Shown in pieces: positions 32,216 through 58,896 of a stretch of DNA of 64,000 nt. The stretch is from the NCBI GenBank assembly GCA_040754075.1, contig JBFMDH010000004.1:186001-250000 (forward strand), given 5' to 3'. Below the pieces are notes generated by a model that saw only the letters and a list, made by a program, of their open reading frames with translations, was not told where the DNA came from and made no database searches. The first letter of the stretch is position 1, and each line of letters starts with the position of its first letter. The translations under genes were made by a program, and so were the position numbers. The stretch comes from Acidobacteriota bacterium. Lineage in GTDB: Bacteria; Acidobacteriota; Blastocatellia; UBA7656.

Positions 32216-32230
32216 TGGCATATAGATTGC
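32216..32230 (+). promoter_or_regulatory. Sigma-54-type promoter of the first pilin gene
   Basis: TGGCATATAGATTGC has the invariant GG-N10-GC core with TGGCA and TTGC boxes. Initiation about 12 bases after the GC would give a short leader that still contains the GAGGAGG ribosome-binding site at about 32244-32251 before ATG 32258. Confidence 0.6.
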
Positions 32231-32257
32231 TGAAAAACCGGAATGAGGAGGGAAAGC

Positions 32258-33592: not shown

Positions 33593-33953
33593 TTATATCT
33601 TAGGCTTAGAGGATTCGGTGAGGCTCAGAAAAGCAAGCGCCGCAACCCTGCTTTTTAATCACTGCCACTCCTTCTCAATTATCAGAAAATTCTCCGTTGA
33701 CAAAAAGCGTGTTAATGACAGGAATTGGCAATCTGGTATAACGGTTTTTGTTAAAAAGGGGCAAGAACCGGTCTTTTGAAATCCCGGATGGCTGGAATAT
33801 CCCCAATCAATGCTTCATTTCACCATTCGGGGCGCAGGTTGCGAGAAGTTGGCACAAGCTTTGCGAATGGAACGACTGTCACAGCACTGATGAGCCGTTA
33901 GGACGGTGAAAGCCTGCGGCAATGATAGGCAACCAAAATTTAAGGAGAATAAA
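33593..33953 (+). other. Intergenic leader of the second pilin gene
   Basis: This 361-base gap has no gene. It contains the sigma-54-type promoter at 33850-33864 and, further upstream, AT-rich DNA suitable for activator binding and bending. AAGGAG lies just before ATG 33954. No terminator for the RNase Z-like gene is obvious. Confidence 0.6.
33850..33864 (+). promoter_or_regulatory. Sigma-54-type promoter of the second pilin gene
   Basis: TGGCACAAGCTTTGC matches TGGCAC-N5-TTGC exactly, with the GG-N10-GC spacing. Transcription would begin near 33876, leaving a leader of roughly 78 bases before ATG 33954. Sigma-54 control of pilA through PilR is established in several proteobacteria. Confidence 0.75.
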
Positions 33954-35266: not shown

Positions 35267-37282
35267 ATGGCGAAAACCGATACCGTAGCGAAACGCTTAG
35301 AAAAGGGCATTGCTAAATCCTCAAAAGTTCAACCTGTCGATGCGCCGCAAACCAATCTGTTGTTGCGAGCACTTGACCGAATGGATGTTTCGCGAGTCAT
35401 TCTCTTGCTTTGTTTACTCATTGGAATTTCATATGCAAATTCGCTGGGCGGCGATTTCGTTCATGATGATATTGACCAGATTCTCAAAAACCCCGATATA
35501 CGCAGTTGGGATAATCTTAGCAAAGCCTTTACCACACACGTCTGGCAATTTCGCGAACGTCCCGAATGGTTGAGAATTCCGATTCCGCCGCCTTATTACC
35601 GCCCATTGTTTACGGTTTTGTTCACGGTTGAATACCAACTGTTCGGCATTTGGCAACAGGGCTGGCATCTGGTGAGTGTCTTACTGCATATCTTTTGTTC
35701 TATCGGTGTCTTTTTTGTCTTGATGCAGTTATCGCGCAACCGAATGATAGCCGTCATCACCGCAGCGATTTTTGCTGTCTATTCCATACACGTTGAATCC
35801 GTCAGTTGGATTAGCGGGGTGACCGACCCTTTATTTGGCACATTCTTTCTCTGGGCTTTTTATTTTTATTTGCGCTACAAAGAAGAGCAGAAAACCCGGT
35901 TGTTGATTTATTCCACTTTGCTTTTTGCCGGGGCGGCGTTTTCCAAAGAAACCGCATTGACCTTTGTGCCCCTGATTTTTGTTTTTGAAATCATCGGATT
36001 TAATCATGATTCACCATCAGGCGGATCGCTTAAAAAATCCAAAGGCTCCTTTGATTTCATCGCTTCGCTAAAAAAAGCTGTGGTGATGAGTTTGCCATAT
36101 GCGGGTGTAGTTGTTGTCTATTTGCTTGCCCGTTTTCTGGTGCTTGGAAGTTTAACCTGGTATAACCCAGCCGCGTACCATGGGCCGCGTATTCATATAC
36201 TCTGGACATTGCCATGGGTCGTTTGTACCTACCTGCTACATCTGCTTTTTCCGTTTAATATGAGCATTGCTTATGCGACCGATTATGTGAAATCGCCCGC
36301 GTCGGCAAGCTTTATTTTTCCGACGCTGGCACTGCTGATCATCACCGGCAGTTTGATTTATTATCACTCCAGAATCAGCAAAGCGGTGTGGCAGGCATTC
36401 GCTTTTTTGGTTGTTCCGTTGCTGTTGGTTTTCGATATTCGCCAGCTGTCGGTCGAATACCTGATTGCTGACCGTTATCTTTATCTTTCAGTGGTTGGTT
36501 TCGGATATCTCATTGCAATGGGCATCGCGAAATTAGCCGACAAAGAAGAGCAACGCATTCATCGACAGATGAAAACACCATCGGCTGTCGAACGCCTCGG
36601 TTTAAGCTCGGCGTTGGTGATTATCCTGTTGACGTTTTCAATTGTCGTGACGACCAGAGAGAATCAAGCGTGGGCAGATGGTTATTCGCTATGGGCGGCG
36701 GCGGCGCGCGTGCGCCCGAATTTCTGGGCGACGCATTACAATGCCGGACTTGAACTCATTAAAGCCAAGCGATTTGCGGAAGCTCGCGACGCCCTGCTTC
36801 GCGCCGCTGACATTACTGCCGCAGAGCCGACGGTGTTTAATGAACTCGGGCAGGCTTATATGGGACTCGGTGAAAACTCGCGGGCGATAGAGAGTTTTAA
36901 ACGCGCGCTCGATATTGACCCTGAGACTTTTGAAGCCCTCAATAATCTCGGCACGATTTATTTCAATTCCGGCGATTTCGTTTCAGCCGAACGCTATTTT
37001 AAATCTTCACTGTCGCTGAAGCCGCAAGCGGTATCTTCGCGCTTCAATCTGGCAATGTGTTACAGCCGTCAAAATCGTTTCCAGGAAGCGATTCCTGAAT
37101 TGGAAAATTCGGCTAAGTATGCGCCCGATGATGGCGAAGTCTTATACGAACTCGGTCTCGCTTATGAAAAGGTTGGGCGCAAAACCGATGCTCTTGCCAC
37201 CTGGCAAAAAGCCTCGGCGCTCAAGAATACAGAGGCGTTGCGTAATAAAATTAATGACGGGTTAAATCGCCTGAGAAGTTAA
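35267..37282 (+). CDS. GT-C-type membrane glycosyltransferase with C-terminal TPR (TMTC-like)
   Basis: The 671-residue protein has about ten membrane helices (about 40-470). The first outer loop contains GDFVHDDIDQILKNP and a YYRPLFTVLFTVEYQLFG segment, as in the TMTC/GT-C protein O-mannosyltransferase group, where the acidic pair in loop 1 is catalytic. About five TPR repeats follow (about 485-660; for example PTVFNELGQAYMGLGENSRAIESF, quoted in part as AYMGLGENSRAIESF). Such proteins transfer sugars from a polyprenyl carrier to exported proteins. Its position after three pilin genes suggests pilin or filament glycosylation, which is inference. Confidence 0.78.
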   Translation: MAKTDTVAKRLEKGIAKSSKVQPVDAPQTNLLLRALDRMDVSRVILLLCLLIGISYANSLGGDFVHDDIDQILKNPDIRSWDNLSKAFTTHVWQFRERPEWLRIPIPPPYYRPLFTVLFTVEYQLFGIWQQGWHLVSVLLHIFCSIGVFFVLMQLSRNRMIAVITAAIFAVYSIHVESVSWISGVTDPLFGTFFLWAFYFYLRYKEEQKTRLLIYSTLLFAGAAFSKETALTFVPLIFVFEIIGFNHDSPSGGSLKKSKGSFDFIASLKKAVVMSLPYAGVVVVYLLARFLVLGSLTWYNPAAYHGPRIHILWTLPWVVCTYLLHLLFPFNMSIAYATDYVKSPASASFIFPTLALLIITGSLIYYHSRISKAVWQAFAFLVVPLLLVFDIRQLSVEYLIADRYLYLSVVGFGYLIAMGIAKLADKEEQRIHRQMKTPSAVERLGLSSALVIILLTFSIVVTTRENQAWADGYSLWAAAARVRPNFWATHYNAGLELIKAKRFAEARDALLRAADITAAEPTVFNELGQAYMGLGENSRAIESFKRALDIDPETFEALNNLGTIYFNSGDFVSAERYFKSSLSLKPQAVSSRFNLAMCYSRQNRFQEAIPELENSAKYAPDDGEVLYELGLAYEKVGRKTDALATWQKASALKNTEALRNKINDGLNRLRS

Positions 37283-48033: not shown

Positions 48034-48094
48034 AATCTTAAAGCCACGTAGCAATCTCAAATGAATGAATCTTAAAGCCACGTAGCAATCTCAA
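48034..48094. repeat. 27-bp direct repeat overlapping a gene end
   Basis: The 27 bases 48034-48060 recur exactly at 48068-48094, a period of 34 bases. The second copy includes the stop codon and last codon of the gene ending at 48091. The 3' end was therefore duplicated into the untranslated region, probably by slippage. Confidence 0.9.
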
Positions 48095-48660
48095 GGGTGC
48101 TCCGCAGCGTGGTAGTGTTCCTTACTGGCATCACGCAATCCAATCCACCAATCTTCTCGCGCCGCGTTCACACTTTCTGCTCCGGCTTGCATTAAAATAT
48201 CGCGGATTTGCGATTCCTGTTCTTCATCATCAAATAAACAAATTACCAATGAGCGCCCTTGTTTGAGCGAATCTTTATAAACATAGGATTCATCAATCGG
48301 GATACCTTTATTCAGGTCATCTTCCAATTTCTCGCCAACGGCAACGCCACCCAAAGCCCCAAGCAAAGCGCCTGCGGCAATGCCGAAAGCGATAATCGTA
48401 CCGACTCCCGGTATCAACGCGCTTATGGCAATGGCTCCTAAACTACCTGCGCCGGCACCAACGGCTCCGCCAACCACGCCACCTATCGCCGAACCCATTC
48501 CCGGTTGCTCACCTTCAGAGGTCGGGATATTGGCAACCTCCTGTTCGGATGATTGTGGAGTAAGGCGAATAATATTTTTTTCATCGATTCCCTGAGCGCG
48601 CAGATTATCAACCGCTCGTTTTGCATCTCTATTTGCTTTAAAAACGCCGACAAGTTCCAT
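48091..48660 (-). CDS. Glycine-zipper general stress protein
   Basis: The 189-residue protein begins with MELVGVFKANRDAKRAVDNL, an N-terminal fold like the heat-induced/general stress family (YflT type). A highly hydrophobic Gly/Ala-rich centre follows (about 58-115; SAIGGVVGGAVGAGAGSLG), typical of glycine-zipper membrane-inserting segments. The C-terminal half contains VICLFDDEEQESQIRDILMQ. It probably associates with the inner membrane under stress. A sigma-54-type promoter lies 41 bases upstream of its ATG, divergent from that of the gene at 48965. Confidence 0.75.
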   Translation of the reverse strand: MELVGVFKANRDAKRAVDNLRAQGIDEKNIIRLTPQSSEQEVANIPTSEGEQPGMGSAIGGVVGGAVGAGAGSLGAIAISALIPGVGTIIAFGIAAGALLGALGGVAVGEKLEDDLNKGIPIDESYVYKDSLKQGRSLVICLFDDEEQESQIRDILMQAGAESVNAAREDWWIGLRDASKEHYHAAEHP

Positions 48661-48700
48661 AAGTCATTCCTCGCTGATTAAGTTTTCTCCCATTTGAGTT

Positions 48701-48715
48701 GCAAGCTTTATGCCG
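48701..48715 (-). promoter_or_regulatory. Sigma-54-type promoter of the glycine-zipper gene
   Basis: Read on the minus strand, CGGCATAAAGCTTGC keeps the GG-N10-GC core and a TTGCA -12 box, with C in place of the usual T at the first -24 position. Initiation near 48689 would leave a leader of about 29 bases. Confidence 0.55.
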
Positions 48716-48892
48716 TCCCGAAATTGCTGCGCCGAGACATTTATTTTTTCAGCAAGAAGAAAAGTGCTTTTGCTTTAATGGCGTTCTTTTTTGTTACGCT
48801 GCCTGTATTGGATTCCTACAAAACTGCTGGTTACTTCCCTTGAATTTTTTACTCATCAGTAAATTTATTCAACGAAAGCGCGACTTAACCTT

Positions 48893-48907
48893 CGGCATAT
48901 GGTTTGC
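48893..48907 (+). promoter_or_regulatory. Sigma-54-type promoter of the gene at 48965
   Basis: CGGCATATGGTTTGC has the GG-N10-GC core and the same -24 box as the divergent promoter at 48715-48701. Initiation near 48919 would leave a leader of about 45 bases holding AAGGAGGAGG. Confidence 0.55.
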
Positions 48908-48964
48908 GCTTGGGTTGTCGGAAGGTTTGAGAACGAACCAGTTTTGAAGGAGGAGGATTTCAAA

Positions 48965-49300
48965 ATGTCTACGAGAGCAGAAAGCGGTTTTTTGGTATCG
49001 GAACAGCCTGTTCATCAAACATCGGGGATATTTGCTGCCTTGAAAGATTTCATCAATCGTATTTTTGGTTGTTGGCATAAGGAGATGAGCCGTCCGTTCA
49101 CTATTGAAGGCGAAACCTATCGGGTTTGTCTACATTGTGGCGCTCGCCGACAATTCAAACGCGAAAGCTGGGAAACTCAGGGGCGATATTATTTTGAAGA
49201 TGCTTCGCCTGCAAGAACCAGAGGTCAAGTTGCACCGGTTAAAATCTCCAGATTACCGAACGAACAATTGGCGTTACCGCTGAAAACCAGTTTCAACTAA
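48965..49300 (+). CDS. Small protein with two cysteine/histidine motifs, function unknown
   Basis: The 111-residue protein has CWHKEMSRPF (about 38-47) and, after a short strand, YRVCLHCGARRQFK (about 55-68). The spaced Cys/His residues could bind zinc. The C-terminal third is polar and likely disordered. I do not recognise the family. ATG 48965 follows AAGGAGGAGGATTTCAAA, a very strong ribosome-binding site, so it may be made in quantity when induced. It is divergent from the glycine-zipper gene and shares the sigma-54-type promoter arrangement. Confidence 0.7.
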   Translation: MSTRAESGFLVSEQPVHQTSGIFAALKDFINRIFGCWHKEMSRPFTIEGETYRVCLHCGARRQFKRESWETQGRYYFEDASPARTRGQVAPVKISRLPNEQLALPLKTSFN

Positions 49301-49692
49301 GTAGATAAAAAATGAATTGTTGATGTTTGATAATTCATAAATTTGCGGTGCGCTGCCTACGGAAGCGTTCTCCCTGGCTGTTGTAACAATCAAGTACATA
49401 AAAAATGTGGATGTACCGTTTCTTTGCTCAAGGGTTTTCAGCCTGACTCTATCTCAAACACATTTTTTAAAGTTAAGTAAGCAACGTTGTTTGTTCATCA
49501 ATGGCGGTTTGGCTCGCTCTTTGCAAATGACAAGATTGTCAAAAAAATAGAATTAATCTGGTTGAATTTTAAAGCGGTCAGGCGTTCAGCGATGATCGCT
49601 TGAATTTCTTTTAAAGATTAACTCTAAATCCAGAAAACAAAATTCAAGTATCTCTTTGCTACCTGCGTTACGAATTAAAAGGAGATTTAGCG
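49301..49692 (+). other. Long leader of the YqjD/YqjE-like operon
   Basis: This 392-base gap has no gene. It contains the sigma-54-type promoter at 49510-49524, AT-rich flanking DNA and AAAGGAGA just before ATG 49693. The predicted leader of about 155 bases is long enough for post-transcriptional control, but no clear fold was recognised. Confidence 0.6.
49510..49524 (+). promoter_or_regulatory. Sigma-54-type promoter of the YqjD/YqjE-like operon
   Basis: TGGCTCGCTCTTTGC, preceded by T and followed by A, matches TTGGCACG-N4-TTGCA at all but one of the defined positions, with exact GG-N10-GC spacing. Confidence 0.7.
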
Positions 49693-50057: not shown

Positions 50058-50477
50058 ATGCAACCGAAACAGGAAACCATAAAATCGCTTCAAGCCAATA
50101 CTCGCGAAGAATCCCTGACCACTCTGCTTAGAGAGCTGGCAAGCAACTCCGCGGCTTTGGTGCGCGATGAACTGGCGCTTGCCAAACAGGAAATGAGCGA
50201 AAAAATTGCTTCGCTCAACAGCGGCATCATGGTAACGGCAATCGGGTCGATACTCGCTTTGCTTTCTCTGATGGTTTTATCGGCTGCCGCAGTAATTGTC
50301 TTAGCGCCTTATGCGGGCTTATGGCAGTCGGCTCTGATGATCGGCTTGGGATTAGCCATCGTCGGCGGAAGCATTGCCCTTACCGGAATTCAAAAAATCA
50401 AAGCGATTAAATTAAAACCTGAAAAGACCGTAAAAACTTTAGAAGAGGATAAACAATGGTTGAAAGAAATAAGCTGA
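50058..50477 (+). CDS. YqjE-like membrane protein (phage holin III/DUF1469-like)
   Basis: The 139-residue protein has an amphipathic N-terminal helix (LTTLLRELASNSAALVRDEL). Two strong membrane helices follow (about 56-79 and 90-112; IGSILALLSLMVLSAAAVIV and SALMIGLGLAIVGGSIAL), then a basic tail. This is the Holin-X/YqjE pattern found with YqjD and DUF3618 genes across bacteria. It is not necessarily a phage gene. Its 3' end overlaps the next gene by 22 bases. Confidence 0.78.
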   Translation: MQPKQETIKSLQANTREESLTTLLRELASNSAALVRDELALAKQEMSEKIASLNSGIMVTAIGSILALLSLMVLSAAAVIVLAPYAGLWQSALMIGLGLAIVGGSIALTGIQKIKAIKLKPEKTVKTLEEDKQWLKEIS

Positions 50478-50986
50478 TTTCGCGAAGCAATTCCGAAACT
50501 CGTGAAGATGACCGAAGCGCCGATGAGATTCGTCGAGATATTGCCAACCGTCGCGAATCTTTAACGGGAACTGTCGAACGTCTCGGCGATCACATACAAC
50601 AACGTCTCGACTGGCGACAATATGTGGCTGATTATCCTTTTGTGGCTATAGGGGTGGCTGCCGGTGTCGGTTTTCTATTTTCAGGAATGTTCAAACGAAC
50701 GCCGACGCCTGGCGAGCGCATTATGGATGCGGTAGCCGAAAGCCTCGAAGATATGCGTGATCGTTTGTACTCGACTTTCGATGATTTGCCTTTGAAAAAA
50801 AATGGTGTGGGCAAAACCGTTAAGGCTGCGGCAACCGCGATAATCACCAAACAAATTGCCGATTATTTGAAGGATAAATTAACCGCAAAAATCGAATCGT
50901 CAAATAATCGAATCAAGCAAGCCGATATATCCACACCCAAAGAAGAACGCGCGCGAACCGCTGTGAATTCTGAGATGGGTACTTAA
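50456..50986 (+). CDS. DUF3618-like membrane protein
   Basis: The 176-residue protein starts with the DUF3618 signature RSADEIRRDIANRRESLTGT and continues through DWRQYVADYPFVAIGVAAGV, one membrane segment (about 60-78). The C-terminal part is helical and charged. It is translationally coupled to the YqjE-like gene by overlap. The family is of unknown biochemical role but is repeatedly found with the two preceding genes, which supports the operon call. Confidence 0.78.
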   Translation: MVERNKLISRSNSETREDDRSADEIRRDIANRRESLTGTVERLGDHIQQRLDWRQYVADYPFVAIGVAAGVGFLFSGMFKRTPTPGERIMDAVAESLEDMRDRLYSTFDDLPLKKNGVGKTVKAAATAIITKQIADYLKDKLTAKIESSNNRIKQADISTPKEERARTAVNSEMGT

Positions 50987-51034: not shown

Positions 51035-51448
51035 ATGGAAAGTACACCAAAAAGAGCACAAGAAACCGGAAAAACTTCTGTCCCGGAGCGTAAAGACATG
51101 CCTTCTACCGGACAATCGCAACCAGTAACTGCTACGACGCCAAACCGTCAATCAACGGATGAGCAAACCCTCATGGATCAAGGGACGGAAATCATAGAAC
51201 AGGCAAAACAGAAAGTTACGGATGTTTATAATCAAACGGCTCAATCGGTCACTCATGGTTATGAAAACATCAAAGCCTATGGACAAAAAAATCCCGGAAC
51301 CATGACCTTGATTGCGTTTGGCGCAGGAGTTGGTGTAGGGCTGTTGCTTGCCAACGGGATGATGAATTCGCGCAGCACCAGAGCCGGGCGAATCGTTCCA
51401 CCGGTTCTTAACGCGCTTTCCGATATCGCATCACAAGTTTTGCGATAG
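51035..51448 (+). CDS. Membrane-anchored helical stress protein
   Basis: The 137-residue protein (ATG 51035, directly after GGGAGGAATT; an upstream ATG at 51002 lacks a site) has a polar N-terminal half. A helical middle follows (QKVTDVYNQTAQSVTHGYEN), then one membrane segment NPGTMTLIAFGAGVGVGLLL. The NPG(R/T)-TL start of the anchor resembles the first gene of the operon, so it is probably a diverged DUF883-type paralogue. It ends the operon. Confidence 0.7.
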   Translation: MESTPKRAQETGKTSVPERKDMPSTGQSQPVTATTPNRQSTDEQTLMDQGTEIIEQAKQKVTDVYNQTAQSVTHGYENIKAYGQKNPGTMTLIAFGAGVGVGLLLANGMMNSRSTRAGRIVPPVLNALSDIASQVLR

Positions 51449-53687: not shown

Positions 53688-55055
53688 TTACTCGGCGTTA
53701 TCTTTGAGATTGATATTGAATCGTTCAGCCATGCGATAAAGCGTGCGCCGGTCAATCTTCATAATTTCGGCAGCGCGCGTGCGACTGCCGCCCACCTGTT
53801 GCAGCACATGCACCAGATAGCGGCGTTCCAATTCGTCAAGCGAGGGTAAATCATCAAACAGCGTCTGTAATTTTTCGCCGCGATTGCTGCCCACCTGATT
53901 GCGAACTTTTTCCTGTAAATCACTCGGCGTAATAACCGAACCACGCACATACAAAGCGGCGTGTTCGATGGTGTTTTCAAGTTCACGAACATTGCCGGGC
54001 CAATCGTATTGTTCGAGCAATGACAACGCCTCTGAAGAGATAGAAGTGGCAACCGTTCCTGCTGATTTCGCGCGTTTGAGAGCGTGAGCCGCAAGCAGTT
54101 GGATGTCTTCACGCCGTTCTCTGAGCGGCGGCACACGCAACGTCACCACGCTTAACCGATAAAACAGGTCTTCGCGAAACCGCCCTTCTTTGACCTCCTG
54201 TTCGAGATGGCGATTGGTGGCTGCCAGGATTCGCACATCGACGTGAATATTTTTAGTGCCGCCGACTCTGCGAATTTCGCTCTCCTGCAAGACGCGCAAC
54301 AATTTCACCTGCATGTTCAAACTGGTTTCGCCGATTTCATCAAGAAAAATGGTGCCGCCGTCAGCGTCTTCAAAGAGACCGCGTTTGTCTGCATAAGCGC
54401 CTGTGAAACTGCCTTTCATATGCCCGAACAATTCGGCTTCAAGCAGGGTTTCGGTTAAAGCGCCGCAGTTGATGGCTAAGAACGCGCCGTTATGGCGCAA
54501 ACTGTTGCGGTGAATCGCGCGCGCCACCAGTTCTTTGCCGGTGCCCGATTCCCCGGTAATCAATACGGTCGAGCGCGATGGCGCAACCACGGCAATCTGT
54601 TTATAGAGGTCAATCATTTTCGGGCTGTGCCCGATAAGCCCCGATGATTCGCTGTACTCTTTCAAAATGACTGCCTGGGTTTCTTCGGTCTTCTGTTGGG
54701 TGAGAGCACGTTTGGCGGTGGCGATGATTTCCGAAATATTGAACGGTTTGCTGATGTAATCGAAAGCCCCTTCGCGAACCGCTTCGACGGCGGTTTCGAG
54801 CGACCCGAAGCCGCTAATCAAAATGACCTCGGATTGTGGTGAGATGGTTTTGAACTCTTTGAGCAGGGCAACCCCATTGATTTTGCTGCCCAGATTAATA
54901 TCGGAAACAATCAAGTCGAAGCGTTGGCGATTCACCGCAGCGATGGCGGCTTCGGCAGATTGACTGGAGGTCACTTGCCAGCCTTCTTCGGAAAAAATTT
55001 CGGAAAGAAAATTGCAGGTTTCCAAATCGTCGTCAATAACCAGAATTTGTTTCAT
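53688..55055 (-). CDS. NtrC-family sigma-54-dependent response regulator
   Basis: The 455-residue protein has a receiver domain (about 1-120; acidic pocket DDD at 8-10, phosphorylated Asp 52, Lys in SKPF). An AAA+ domain (about 140-375) follows, with Walker A ITGESGTGKELVARAI, loop 1 GSFTGA in place of the usual GAFTGA, and Walker B GGTIFLDEIGE. A Fis-type HTH lies at the C terminus (GGSRTRAAEIMKIDRRTLYR). It activates transcription by RNA polymerase with sigma-54 when phosphorylated. ATG 55055 is chosen over TTG 55070; the gene starts 8 bases after the kinase stop, so the two are translated together. Confidence 0.95.
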   Translation of the reverse strand: MKQILVIDDDLETCNFLSEIFSEEGWQVTSSQSAEAAIAAVNRQRFDLIVSDINLGSKINGVALLKEFKTISPQSEVILISGFGSLETAVEAVREGAFDYISKPFNISEIIATAKRALTQQKTEETQAVILKEYSESSGLIGHSPKMIDLYKQIAVVAPSRSTVLITGESGTGKELVARAIHRNSLRHNGAFLAINCGALTETLLEAELFGHMKGSFTGAYADKRGLFEDADGGTIFLDEIGETSLNMQVKLLRVLQESEIRRVGGTKNIHVDVRILAATNRHLEQEVKEGRFREDLFYRLSVVTLRVPPLRERREDIQLLAAHALKRAKSAGTVATSISSEALSLLEQYDWPGNVRELENTIEHAALYVRGSVITPSDLQEKVRNQVGSNRGEKLQTLFDDLPSLDELERRYLVHVLQQVGGSRTRAAEIMKIDRRTLYRMAERFNINLKDNAE

Positions 55056-55063
55056 GATTTCTC

Positions 55064-56731
55064 TCACCAAATTATAGTCGCATTGCGTATGCCCCCTGAT
55101 TCATTAACAAAATTTTCTGCTTTCGGCAATTTAATTAAGAAATTTGTGAGTTTGCCGGTTTCACTTTCAGCGCGAATCTCGCCGCCATGTTCGAGAATAA
55201 TCTGTTTGACAATGGTTAGCCCAAGCCCGGTTCCGCCCTGTTCACGCTTGGTTGAAAACAGCGGCTCAAAAATTAAACCAATCTCTTCGACGGGTATGCC
55301 TTTTCCTGTGTCGGAGATTTTGATGAGAATATTTTCTTCTTCCAGGCTGGTCGCCACTAACAAATTGCCACCTTCGGGCATGGCATCGAGACTGTTGTTA
55401 ATCAAATTGAGGAAGACCTGTTGCAACTGGTCTGCATTGGCATAGATTGTCGGAAGATTGTCAGCCAGAGCTTTTGACAATTTTACCTGCCGCGACGACA
55501 GCGTCGGTTGCATGGCATAGAGAATATTTTCAAGGATTTTGTTGATGTCGCCGGTTGCATATTTCGGGCGCGGGCGTTTGATGGCATCCAGCATGGCGCG
55601 AACGATTTCGGTGACGCGGTCAATCTGCGCTTCGATAACCGCCAGACGATTGGTGATGCGTTCATCGGTGGTGCGGGCGCGAAGCAGTTGCACATGACCG
55701 GAAATTAAATTCAAGGGAGTGCCGACTTCGTGCGCGAATTGCGCGGCAAGTTGCCCGGCGGTTGCGAGCTTTTCAAGTTTTGAAAGCTCTTTCTGCATTT
55801 CAAACAAATGCAGGTTGGCGTCTTCGAGTTGTTCGCTGCGTTCGGAAATTTCGATGGTCGCTTCGCGAATGCGGGCTTCCAGCAGCGCGTGTTCCTGATG
55901 TAACTGTTCAGCCATGCGATTAAATTGATTGGTCAACATTCCCAATTCATCCTGCGAAGCGATAGGAACTTCAATCGCCAGATCGCCGCTTTGGGCTTTT
56001 GACATTGCCGCCAGTAAATTATCGAGCGGAATATAAATCAGGTATTTGAAAAGAAAATAGACCAATAAGGTGATGGTAATAATCGTCAGGATGAATGAAG
56101 GGAGAAGCGTTTTGCGCAGCAACGTCCCGAAACTTTGCGATTCATCAAACGACAGCAACAATTGGACAACGCCGAATTGGTTGACGCCTCTATCATCGGA
56201 AATATCGATGCTGGCTTCGACAGTGATTAAAGTCTGATCGCCCTGATGTCTGGTCGCAATGATTTCGCGATTGCCCGTGCCAATCGGCTTAAAAGCCTTG
56301 CTTGAGCCGTTGGGGGATTGAACGGTTGCAGGAATTAACAGGGTTTCAACCCACTCGCCCGTAGCGTTTTTATAATAAACCCGCGCTTCGACAATCTCTT
56401 TGTGAGCGTTTAAAAAACTCTGTTCGAGAATTTTTTTGCTCTCTGTCCAGACGGGAACGAATGCTTCAGCCTGGGCATCTGCGAAACGGTTTTCGGGAGG
56501 TTTATCCTGCGATTTTTTATTGATGATGACGTTTTGTTCAATGATTTCGGCAACCCGAACCGCAAGCAATTCGGATTGATATTTTTCATCTTCAGCGGTG
56601 AGGTTGTTAATCGTGAGATTGGAAAAATAACCGGCAACCGTAAACACCACAATCAACACAATCGAAATCAACAGGGTGGTTTTCGTATGCAATTTGAGGG
56701 CGGCAAAACTGAACCTCTTGGGAAATTTCAT
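55064..56731 (-). CDS. Membrane sensor histidine kinase paired with the NtrC-type regulator
   Basis: The 555-residue protein has two membrane helices (about 18-37 and 212-232) around a periplasmic sensor of about 175 residues. A HAMP domain (about 233-285) is followed by a coiled coil, then HisKA with phospho-acceptor His in AAQFAHEVGTPLNLISGHVQ. The HATPase_c domain has an N box (NLINNSLDAM), G1 (KISDTGKGIP) and G2 (GGTGLGLTIVKQI). The layout matches NtrB/ZraS-like kinases that drive sigma-54 activators. The signal is unknown. All catalytic boxes are intact. Confidence 0.94.
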   Translation of the reverse strand: MKFPKRFSFAALKLHTKTTLLISIVLIVVFTVAGYFSNLTINNLTAEDEKYQSELLAVRVAEIIEQNVIINKKSQDKPPENRFADAQAEAFVPVWTESKKILEQSFLNAHKEIVEARVYYKNATGEWVETLLIPATVQSPNGSSKAFKPIGTGNREIIATRHQGDQTLITVEASIDISDDRGVNQFGVVQLLLSFDESQSFGTLLRKTLLPSFILTIITITLLVYFLFKYLIYIPLDNLLAAMSKAQSGDLAIEVPIASQDELGMLTNQFNRMAEQLHQEHALLEARIREATIEISERSEQLEDANLHLFEMQKELSKLEKLATAGQLAAQFAHEVGTPLNLISGHVQLLRARTTDERITNRLAVIEAQIDRVTEIVRAMLDAIKRPRPKYATGDINKILENILYAMQPTLSSRQVKLSKALADNLPTIYANADQLQQVFLNLINNSLDAMPEGGNLLVATSLEEENILIKISDTGKGIPVEEIGLIFEPLFSTKREQGGTGLGLTIVKQIILEHGGEIRAESETGKLTNFLIKLPKAENFVNESGGIRNATIIW

Positions 56732-57956: not shown

Positions 57957-57971
57957 TGGCACGCCTTTTGC
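57957..57971 (+). promoter_or_regulatory. Sigma-54-type promoter of the PP2C gene
   Basis: TGGCACGCCTTTTGC matches the sigma-54 consensus TGGCACG-N4-TTGC exactly. Initiation near 57983 would leave a leader of about 50 bases before ATG 58033. Confidence 0.78.
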
Positions 57972-58032
57972 CAAACTACGGATGCCAGCTTAAAAGAACA
58001 CAGATGAGAGGGAAACACAGGAGAGTTCTGTT

Positions 58033-58896
58033 ATGGGTGGTCTATCTTTAATTCCGGCGAAAGAGATTTTTGTTTCGGTTTTCGCACAAACCGATGTGGG
58101 AATGAAACGCCAAGCCAACGAGGATACTTACTTGATTGCCGATTTAAATTCAGGAAATTCCAATCTCCGGTTCGGCGTGACCTCGCACAGAGTCGGCGAC
58201 CGTGGCAGTTTGATGATTGTATCGGACGGCATGGGCGGACACCGCGCCGGTGATGTAGCAAGCGATCTGGCAACCCAAATCGTTCTGGATTCCTTGCTCA
58301 ATTTCCCGGAAACCTTGCAGGCGAGCGAGCGTTTGGATAGAGCCACGCGCATTGCCAATCGCATCGTTTGCAATTGCTCGGAAAAAAATCCTGAGCTTGC
58401 CGGAATGGGCACGACGATGACCGCCGTTTTGGTCGAAGGCACGAATGCTTATATTTCACAGGTCGGTGATTCACGCGCCTATTTAATCAGAGACGATGAC
58501 ATCACCCAGCTCACCAGAGATCAATCGCTTCTGCAATTGCTGCTTGATACCGGACAGCTTGAGCCAACCGATGCCGCGAGCCAGCCGAACAATGTGATTA
58601 TGCAGGCAATAGGCATTTCACCGTATCTCGAACCGGAAATTACCAATGTCGAATTGCGCCGTGATGATTATCTGGTGATTTGCAGCGACGGGTTATCGAA
58701 TAAAATCGAGCCGCAGGAAATTCTCGAAGTGGTTCAAGCTGCCGTGCGACTCGATATTGCCTGCCGCAAACTGGTGGCGATGGCGAATGCCCGGGGCGGT
58801 GAAGATAACATCACGGTCATCATTGCGCGCTTTGATGGCGAAGCCTTTGATTCACGAAGCCGAAACGAAATATTGAGAGTACATAGCATCAACTAG
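58033..58896 (+). CDS. PP2C-type serine/threonine protein phosphatase (Stp1-like)
   Basis: The 287-residue cytoplasmic protein has the metal-binding PP2C motifs in order: VGMKRQANEDTYLI (about 18-31), MIVSDGMGGHRAGD (about 61-74), GMGTTMTAVLV (about 126-136), ISQVGDSRAYLIR (about 142-154), VICSDGLSN (about 214-222) and GGEDNITVIIARF (about 254-266). It would reverse Ser/Thr phosphorylation by Hanks-type kinases, using Mn/Mg. No kinase gene is adjacent. GGAGAGT precedes the ATG. A sigma-54-type promoter lies 62 bases upstream, an unusual regulator for this family. Confidence 0.94.
   Translation: MGGLSLIPAKEIFVSVFAQTDVGMKRQANEDTYLIADLNSGNSNLRFGVTSHRVGDRGSLMIVSDGMGGHRAGDVASDLATQIVLDSLLNFPETLQASERLDRATRIANRIVCNCSEKNPELAGMGTTMTAVLVEGTNAYISQVGDSRAYLIRDDDITQLTRDQSLLQLLLDTGQLEPTDAASQPNNVIMQAIGISPYLEPEITNVELRRDDYLVICSDGLSNKIEPQEILEVVQAAVRLDIACRKLVAMANARGGEDNITVIIARFDGEAFDSRSRNEILRVHSIN

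Follow-up and report, generated by a model that had tools for sequence, protein, structure and literature searches.

Membrane stress-protection genes of an Acidobacteriota bacterium appear to be switched on through sigma-54

Introduction

Two-component sigma-54 stress regulons are known from Desulfovibrio and the phage shock (Psp) response is known to run on sigma-54 in E. coli; the locus described here would be a variant of these. In Desulfovibrio vulgaris, as here, NtrC-type regulators of two-component systems go together with sigma-54 promoters and are assigned to stress, DVU3305 to general stress and DVU1419 and DVU3381 to envelope stress (PMC4641369). That organism belongs to another phylum, and the portion of the paper used here names no YqjD/YqjE or YflT targets (PMC4641369). 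In the phage shock response, membrane-stress genes are likewise placed on sigma-54 with an enhancer-binding protein (PMC9239133, PMC3162934), and Psp is under sigma-54 control in E. coli (PMC9239133), but the genes of our locus are not psp genes and PspF has no receiver domain (PMC3162934), unlike the NtrC-type regulators considered below. Psp has also been reconstructed in Acidobacteriota, where the excerpted text describes no sigma-54 promoters (PMC9239133).

The yqjCDEK/elaB genes of E. coli share with our locus a YqjD-YqjE-type pair of small membrane proteins, but they depend on sigma-S (RpoS), whereas a sigma-54 site is found here (PMC10746276, PMC6389858). According to the excerpts of the same reports, the yqjD promoter lies about 100 bp ahead of the start, and in stationary-phase cells YqjD and ElaB, both requiring RpoS, bind to ribosomes at the inner membrane (PMC10746276, PMC6389858). 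When the host genome was compared with the proteobacterial RpoS model, no match passed the cut-off, the best four reaching 234-292 bits against 378.7.

Genome-wide predictions of sigma-54 regulons, in the parts of the text drawn on here, tie sigma-54 to the bacterial exterior, as is proposed for our locus, and include UspA-type stress proteins in Planctomycetia (PMC3162934, PMC12316311); the string "Acidobacteri" is absent from both main texts. Among the matches listed for open-licence papers (titles and starts of abstracts), we found no report of sigma-54 regulation in Acidobacteria/Acidobacteriota, and none of such control among those on RpoN, general stress and YqjD or on YqjD, ElaB and sigma54. 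Searches of open-licence papers on the general stress response of Acidobacteriota and on sigma factors of Blastocatellia returned none. Here we describe a locus within a 64,000-nucleotide stretch of an Acidobacteriota genome (the window), in which a membrane stress-protection gene set appears to be switched on via sigma-54.

Results

Genes and promoter sites of the locus

The first-pass annotation had placed three sigma-54-type promoters on what it called an envelope-stress locus. The genes and sites concerned are as follows.

48091..48660, minus strand: YflT-like glycine-zipper protein, 189 aa; Pfam YflT E 0.0003, under the curated cut-off
48700..48715, minus strand: probable sigma-54 promoter of the YflT-like glycine-zipper gene, CGGCATAAAGCTTGCA; 14.2 bits
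48893..48908, plus strand: possible weak sigma-54 promoter of the Cys/His gene, CGGCATATGGTTTGCG; 11.4 bits
48965..49300, plus strand: small Cys/His protein, 111 aa; ribosome-site-like GGAGG ahead of the ATG at 48965
49510..49525, plus strand: predicted sigma-54 promoter of the YqjD/YqjE-like operon, TGGCTCGCTCTTTGCA; 16.8 bits
49693..50052, plus strand: YqjD-like protein, 119 aa; weak DUF883 C-terminal zipper, Pfam E 0.0098, under the cut-off
50058..50477, plus strand: YqjE-like membrane protein, Phage_holin_3_6, 139 aa; PF07332 at 92 bits, above the cut-off
50456..50986, plus strand: DUF3618/DUF883-like protein, 176 aa; Pfam E 1e-5 and 5e-5, both just under the cut-off
51035..51448, plus strand: DUF3918-like zipper protein, 137 aa, the operon's last gene; Pfam E 0.0043, under the cut-off

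The operon products are small membrane and glycine-zipper proteins, and the gene order, including the DUF3918-like last gene, is identical in L224-L226. Only the YqjE-like protein (PF07332) among the six genes passes its Pfam cut-off, and the Pfam search gave no family for the Cys/His protein. The label "envelope stress" is not borne out, since the families resemble general or stationary-phase stress proteins more and most of the family labels lie under curated cut-offs. Just beyond the end of the YflT-like gene, at about 48038-48094, a stretch of about 28 bases (cttaaagccacgtagcaatctcaa and neighbours) is present in two tandem copies.

Direct reading of the sequence gives CGGCATAAAGCTTGC on the minus strand at 48715-48701 (next base A), CGGCATATGGTTTGC on the plus strand at 48893-48907 (next base G) and TGGCTCGCTCTTTGC on the plus strand at 49510-49524 (next base A), so that all three sites lie where they had been placed and carry the GG-N10-GC core. 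The sites were scored with an approximate 12-position sigma-54 matrix, whose frequencies approximate those of compilations and whose maximum is 19.65 bits. The fixed-spacing elements TGGCACR-N4-TTGCW are present at 49510 and 48700, and weakly at 48893. The distance from the site to the called start codon is 40 bp for 48700, 57 bp for 48893 and 168 bp for 49510, and transcription starts are predicted near 49536 for the 49510 site and near 48690 for the 48700 site. The CGGCAT -24 box shared by the two divergent promoters had been regarded as unusual, but 1.64 Mb of the host genome contain 20 copies of CGGCAT-N5-TTGC, 16 of them within genes.

Chance matches and upstream enrichment

The bare GG-N10-GC core was dropped as evidence for a promoter, given that 547 copies occur in the window. 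The commonness of the core and the presence of at least four RpoD-like factors in the host genome favour a reading in which the sites match by chance and sigma-70-type factors drive the genes, a reading which fits 48893 best. Against it, matches to the full pattern are enriched upstream of genes, and only with the right spacer. This enrichment was measured in 1.64 Mb, or 22% of the host genome (7.58 Mb, 68 contigs), with genes called by a simple codon-usage caller, a spacer of 4 taken as right and spacers of 2, 3, 5 and 6 as wrong-spacer controls; an upstream match is intergenic and lies 5-400 bp before a same-strand gene, the 400-bp limit excluding sites farther out. Among the 33 right-spacer matches that reach 14 bits, 15 are upstream and the other 18 lie outside such regions, whereas 4 of 150 wrong-spacer matches are upstream (3/38, 0/31, 1/40 and 0/41).

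Leaving out the window and a stretch of contig C7 that had been chosen on purpose, the upstream counts are 14/64 versus 11/330 for wrong spacers at 13 bits or more, 6/24 versus 4/145 at 14 bits or more, and 6/13 versus 2/58 at 15 bits or more. The proposal of sigma-54 promoters, which was to be given up if such matches proved equally common inside genes, is therefore not refuted by this comparison. Within the window, the six right-spacer matches of at least 13.9 bits (957, 32216, 33850, 48700, 49510 and 57957) are all intergenic and upstream of a called gene on the correct strand, and the two wrong-spacer matches at this threshold are both within genes.

We derived chance expectations from wrong-spacer matches in host intergenic DNA. 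A match of at least 14.1 bits on either strand of the 304-bp divergent gap is expected 0.0027 times, one of at least 16.6 bits on the plus strand of the 392-bp gap 0.0004 times, and one of at least 11.2 bits in the divergent gap 0.027 times. Consequently, 49510 and 48700 lie far beyond chance, while 48893 is marginal on its own.

A search of the whole genome for the consensus with one mismatch gave a modest excess, 386 versus 287 for the reversed pattern. The exact consensus TGGCNCGNNNNTTGCW occurs eight times in the host genome, including 49510: four copies are inside genes, two are intergenic with no called gene in reach, and two are upstream of genes (49510 and C4 63963). The genome encodes one RpoN domain and 31 activator domains above 200 bits.

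Conservation across the class

Relatives of YqjE are present in 39 of 118 genomes of the class; the search matched 43 places, of which 30 were cut out as loci and scanned, the host included. A right-spacer site of at least 12 bits lies within up to 1.5 kb upstream in 20 of these 30 loci and is missing from the other 10, and the wrong spacers give 1, 0, 2 and 3 of 30; this conservation of the yqjD site is the second argument against chance matches, which we regard as a very improbable explanation. Directly upstream of YqjD, a site of at least 12.5 bits is found in 11 of 20 larger neighbourhoods and none in nine. Across 28 stretches from relatives, 20 of 34 right-spacer matches of at least 13.3 bits are upstream of a gene, versus 5 of 91 with wrong spacers. 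Of three YqjE relatives from outside the class (L290, L291 and L292), only L291 has a site of at least 12 bits upstream of some gene, and this site is not clearly assignable to the YqjE operon.

YflT relatives occur in 52 of the 118 class genomes. We scanned 23 of 30 loci (L134-L156), seven partial or weak ones being left out, and found a site of at least 14 bits in five, namely the host and four loci of one genus whose -12 box is GCGCA (wrong spacers 1, 0, 0 and 0); the remaining 18 of the 22 scanned non-host loci have no site at this threshold. Relatives of the Cys/His protein are found in 27 of 297 genomes of the phylum, and among 29 loci other than the host's a site of at least 12 bits is absent from 28 and present in one.

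These counts make 49510 firm and 48700 probable. Judged from sequence comparison, 49510 is almost certainly a sigma-54 promoter and 48700 very likely one, whereas the chances that 48893 is a promoter are about even. Of the three promoters first proposed, that of the YqjD/YqjE/DUF3618-like operon thus stands, as a strong site conserved class-wide, and that of the YflT-like gene stands less firmly, as a strong site kept in 4 of 22 other loci; the weak third one could not be upheld.

A palindrome upstream of the -24 boxes

Two perfect copies of the palindrome TGTA-N9-TACA, which the first-pass annotation does not mention, lie in the intergenic DNA of the locus.

48804..48820, no strand: putative activator site TGTATTGGATTCCTACA, roughly halfway between the two divergent promoters, with 88 bp separating it from 48715 and 72 bp from 48893
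49382..49398, no strand: putative activator site TGTAACAATCAAGTACA, 111 bp upstream of 49510

The window holds a third perfect copy, at 36224-36240, inside the ORF 35267-37282. In the 1.64 Mb there are six perfect copies, three of them intergenic, of which the 48804 and 49382 copies are two. Of 28 host sigma-54 promoters (12.7 bits or more), seven have a copy with at least 7 of 8 positions 50-190 bp upstream, versus 28 of 1299 gene upstream regions (p 4e-6). Without the two copies that defined the motif the count is 5/26 (p 0.0002), and when a site shared by two divergent promoters is also counted once it is 4/25 (p 0.002). In the reverse test, a sigma-54 site of at least 13 bits lies at 40-180 bp from 7 of 47 intergenic N9 palindromes, whereas ten other spacings together gave 16 of 492 (p 0.002, or 0.024 once the two defining copies are removed).

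Among 20 YqjDE promoters of the class, TGTA ranks first of 256 half-sites at N9. At 7/8 or better, N9 is the best spacing, found in nine of the 20, with N6 (8/20) and N4 (6/20) close behind; several of the nine come from a single conserved block of family f3. The other 11 promoters remain under 7/8, including those of the regulator-bearing genomes G004 and G027. TGTA-N9-TACA ranked top in screens of both 13 and 27 promoters; the screen confined to the 13 stress promoters did not outdo random sets, 15 of 40 of which did equally well, and one of 40 random sets equalled the screen of 27.

The longer pattern TGTANNAATCNANTACA, built from the two window copies, is not enriched with up to two mismatches (2 found versus 1.2 expected), and a second count gave 25 versus 8-72 for six shuffled patterns. 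Words common to the window's promoters were also tried as a signal and were uninformative. In family f3 (L125-L133), a conserved block of 49-51 bp, TGTAY ... GTAY ... CAACAA, lies upstream of the YqjD-type sigma-54 promoter, its start being 92-157 bp ahead of the -24 box in all nine loci examined; its profile gave nothing convincing in 1.2 Mb of the host genome (best E 6.3).

The difference in upstream blocks between two clades could mean that the sigma-54 sites are real but that regulators of different clades bind different upstream sites, the palindromes being partly due to chance. Consistent with several activators of this kind are the YqjDE promoters of G004 and G027, which have no palindrome, and the different regulators that adjoin the operon in the host genome and in G001. 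The first rank of TGTA among the half-sites at N9 and the enrichment of the palindrome at other host sigma-54 promoters speak against it, and we consider this explanation rather unlikely. TGTA-N9-TACA itself is more likely than not the activator site.

Candidate activator proteins

The nearest activator is encoded in the window itself.

53688..55055, minus strand: NtrC-type response regulator with a sigma-54 interaction domain and a GSFTG loop, 2.2 kb past the operon
55064..56731, minus strand: histidine kinase beside this regulator

The operon and the YflT-like gene might have sigma-54 promoters served by this regulator and its kinase. Its proximity speaks in favour, as only one of the 31 strong activator domains in 7.58 Mb is on contig C4, and sigma-54-like sites lie upstream of its kinase (56785, 13.1 bits, with TTCC instead of TTGC) and of a nearby PP2C gene (57957, 17.0 bits). 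In the stretches fetched from G001, G002, G003 and G007, however, its orthologues do not lie beside the stress operon, and at E 1e-130, with 14 candidates scored per genome, the regulator is missing from at least five genomes (G053, G074, G100, G102 and G107) which keep the yqjD-type sigma-54 promoter. Moreover, no counterpart of the kinase's sigma-54 site was seen in four relatives, where the 350 bp searched reached at best 3.5-7.4 bits, and neither the regulator's own promoter nor the PP2C promoter has a palindrome of 7/8. The window regulator, our first choice by proximity, was demoted on these four grounds of orthologue position, absences, lack of a palindrome and an unconserved kinase site, and we now regard it as an unlikely activator of the locus.

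A kinase or regulator adjoins the operon in 2 of 20 neighbourhoods. In G001, a PAS hybrid kinase and another NtrC-type regulator come after the operon on its own strand, with BON-domain and CsbD genes farther on, on the opposite strand. In G027, the operon is followed by a kinase, beyond which the contig stops. The host orthologue of the G001 regulator is encoded at C7 27872-29401 (62% identity over 2-505 of 506). Receiver, AAA+ sigma-54 and Fis-type helix-turn-helix domains were all found in the G001 orthologue, and the sigma-54 domain and a GAFTG loop in the C7 regulator. The last helix is nearly identical between the C7 and G001 regulators and differs in the window regulator; in four f3 genomes the match to the C7 regulator ends before its DNA-binding end.

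The 40-kb stretch around the C7 regulator contains five upstream sigma-54 sites of 13.1-17.0 bits. One precedes a GlsB/YeaQ-type gene (Transgly_assoc), and a 7/8 palindrome lies between the divergent sigma-54 sites of this gene and of the kinase operon. A second G001 copy shows the same layout. With respect to the locus, it is evenly balanced whether the C7 regulator is its activator.

Sigma-54 sites are dense around the C7 regulator (G000:C7 32039-40942; L258:22224-44894 of joined C7). This cluster also includes the site GGGCACGGGGCTTGCC (13.2 bits), 421 bp before a gene with YflT-like similarity at C7 35620. This site is divergent to a further sigma-54 site, and a 7/8 palindrome stands between the two. 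In G027, near the orthologue of the C7 regulator, a 13.0-bit site (L261:3494-3509) lies 230 bp upstream of a gene named Dps-like from its sequence.

Other sigma-54 sites of the host genome

Sigma-54 sites were also seen at individual genes of further stress families, namely PfpI (13.8 bits), DUF4142 (12.8 bits) and GlsB/YeaQ-type (15.3-15.5 bits). The best site of the sample, TGGCACGGGTGTTGCA at G000:C4 63963 (L035:3963-3978; 19.5 bits), lies ahead of an 81-aa ORF, after which comes an RpoD-type sigma factor paralogue at C4 64567-66222 (L035:4567-6222; NF004208 above the cut-off). A cascade from RpoN to a sigma-70-type factor through this site is possible; no TGTA-N9-TACA of at least 6/8 was found upstream of it.

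In the window, 15.3-bit sites at 32216-32231 and 33850-33865, both on the plus strand, lie upstream of two pilin-like genes, the first recognized by its N-methylation motif and the second judged by its N-terminus. Pilin genes are a kind of target of PilR-type activators elsewhere. An outer-membrane beta-barrel gene (322-894) has a 16.8-bit site 63 bp upstream, at 957-972 on the minus strand. The 17.0-bit site at 57957-57972 on the plus strand lies upstream of an Stp1-type PP2C phosphatase gene (58033-58896, plus strand) near the window's NtrC-type regulator, and a related PP2C gene near the orthologous regulator in G001 also has a site (12.7 bits).

Discussion

Sigma-54 promoters are silent without an activator, unlike those of sigma-70-type factors. 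The explanation that we favour, with some reserve, is that RpoN together with an NtrC-type regulator binding the palindrome, most likely the C7 regulator, drives the YqjD/YqjE-like operon and the YflT-like gene. Both would be transcribed by RNA polymerase with sigma-54, which would wait at the -24/-12 site until activated. A kinase would phosphorylate the NtrC-type regulator, which would bind TGTA-N9-TACA 72-111 bp upstream of the -24 boxes, form an AAA+ ring and open the promoter through its GAFTGA-type loop and ATP hydrolysis. Phosphorylation by a kinase, the AAA+ ring and opening through a GAFTGA-type loop are established for NtrC-type activators. The YflT-like gene could be served by the palindrome in the divergent gap, and so, more weakly, could the Cys/His gene. 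As activator, the best candidate would be the product of C7 27872-29401 with its upstream kinase genes, itself encoded within a sigma-54 cluster, and we infer from these comparisons that RpoN and this regulator may act at the locus. Because the G001 kinase has PAS domains, the signal is perhaps redox, oxygen or energy state.

A broader scenario can be sketched tentatively. Within this acidobacteriotal branch, sigma-54 might, together with a PAS-kinase/NtrC pair and a TGTA-N9-TACA enhancer, have taken over a general, stationary-phase type stress set (YqjD/YqjE, YflT, GlsB/YeaQ-type, DUF4142, PfpI and perhaps Dps) that is run by sigma-S, sigma-B or EcfG elsewhere, and might feed an RpoD paralogue through a perfect-consensus sigma-54 promoter, in a cascade like RpoN-RpoS of Borrelia. 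We consider this speculative.

The proposed promoter, enhancer and activator are open to direct testing. If the assignment is true, with conserved stress genes under sigma-54 here but under sigma-S in E. coli, phyla could exchange the sigma factor that serves a given gene set, and particular kinases would govern how these bacteria respond to stress.
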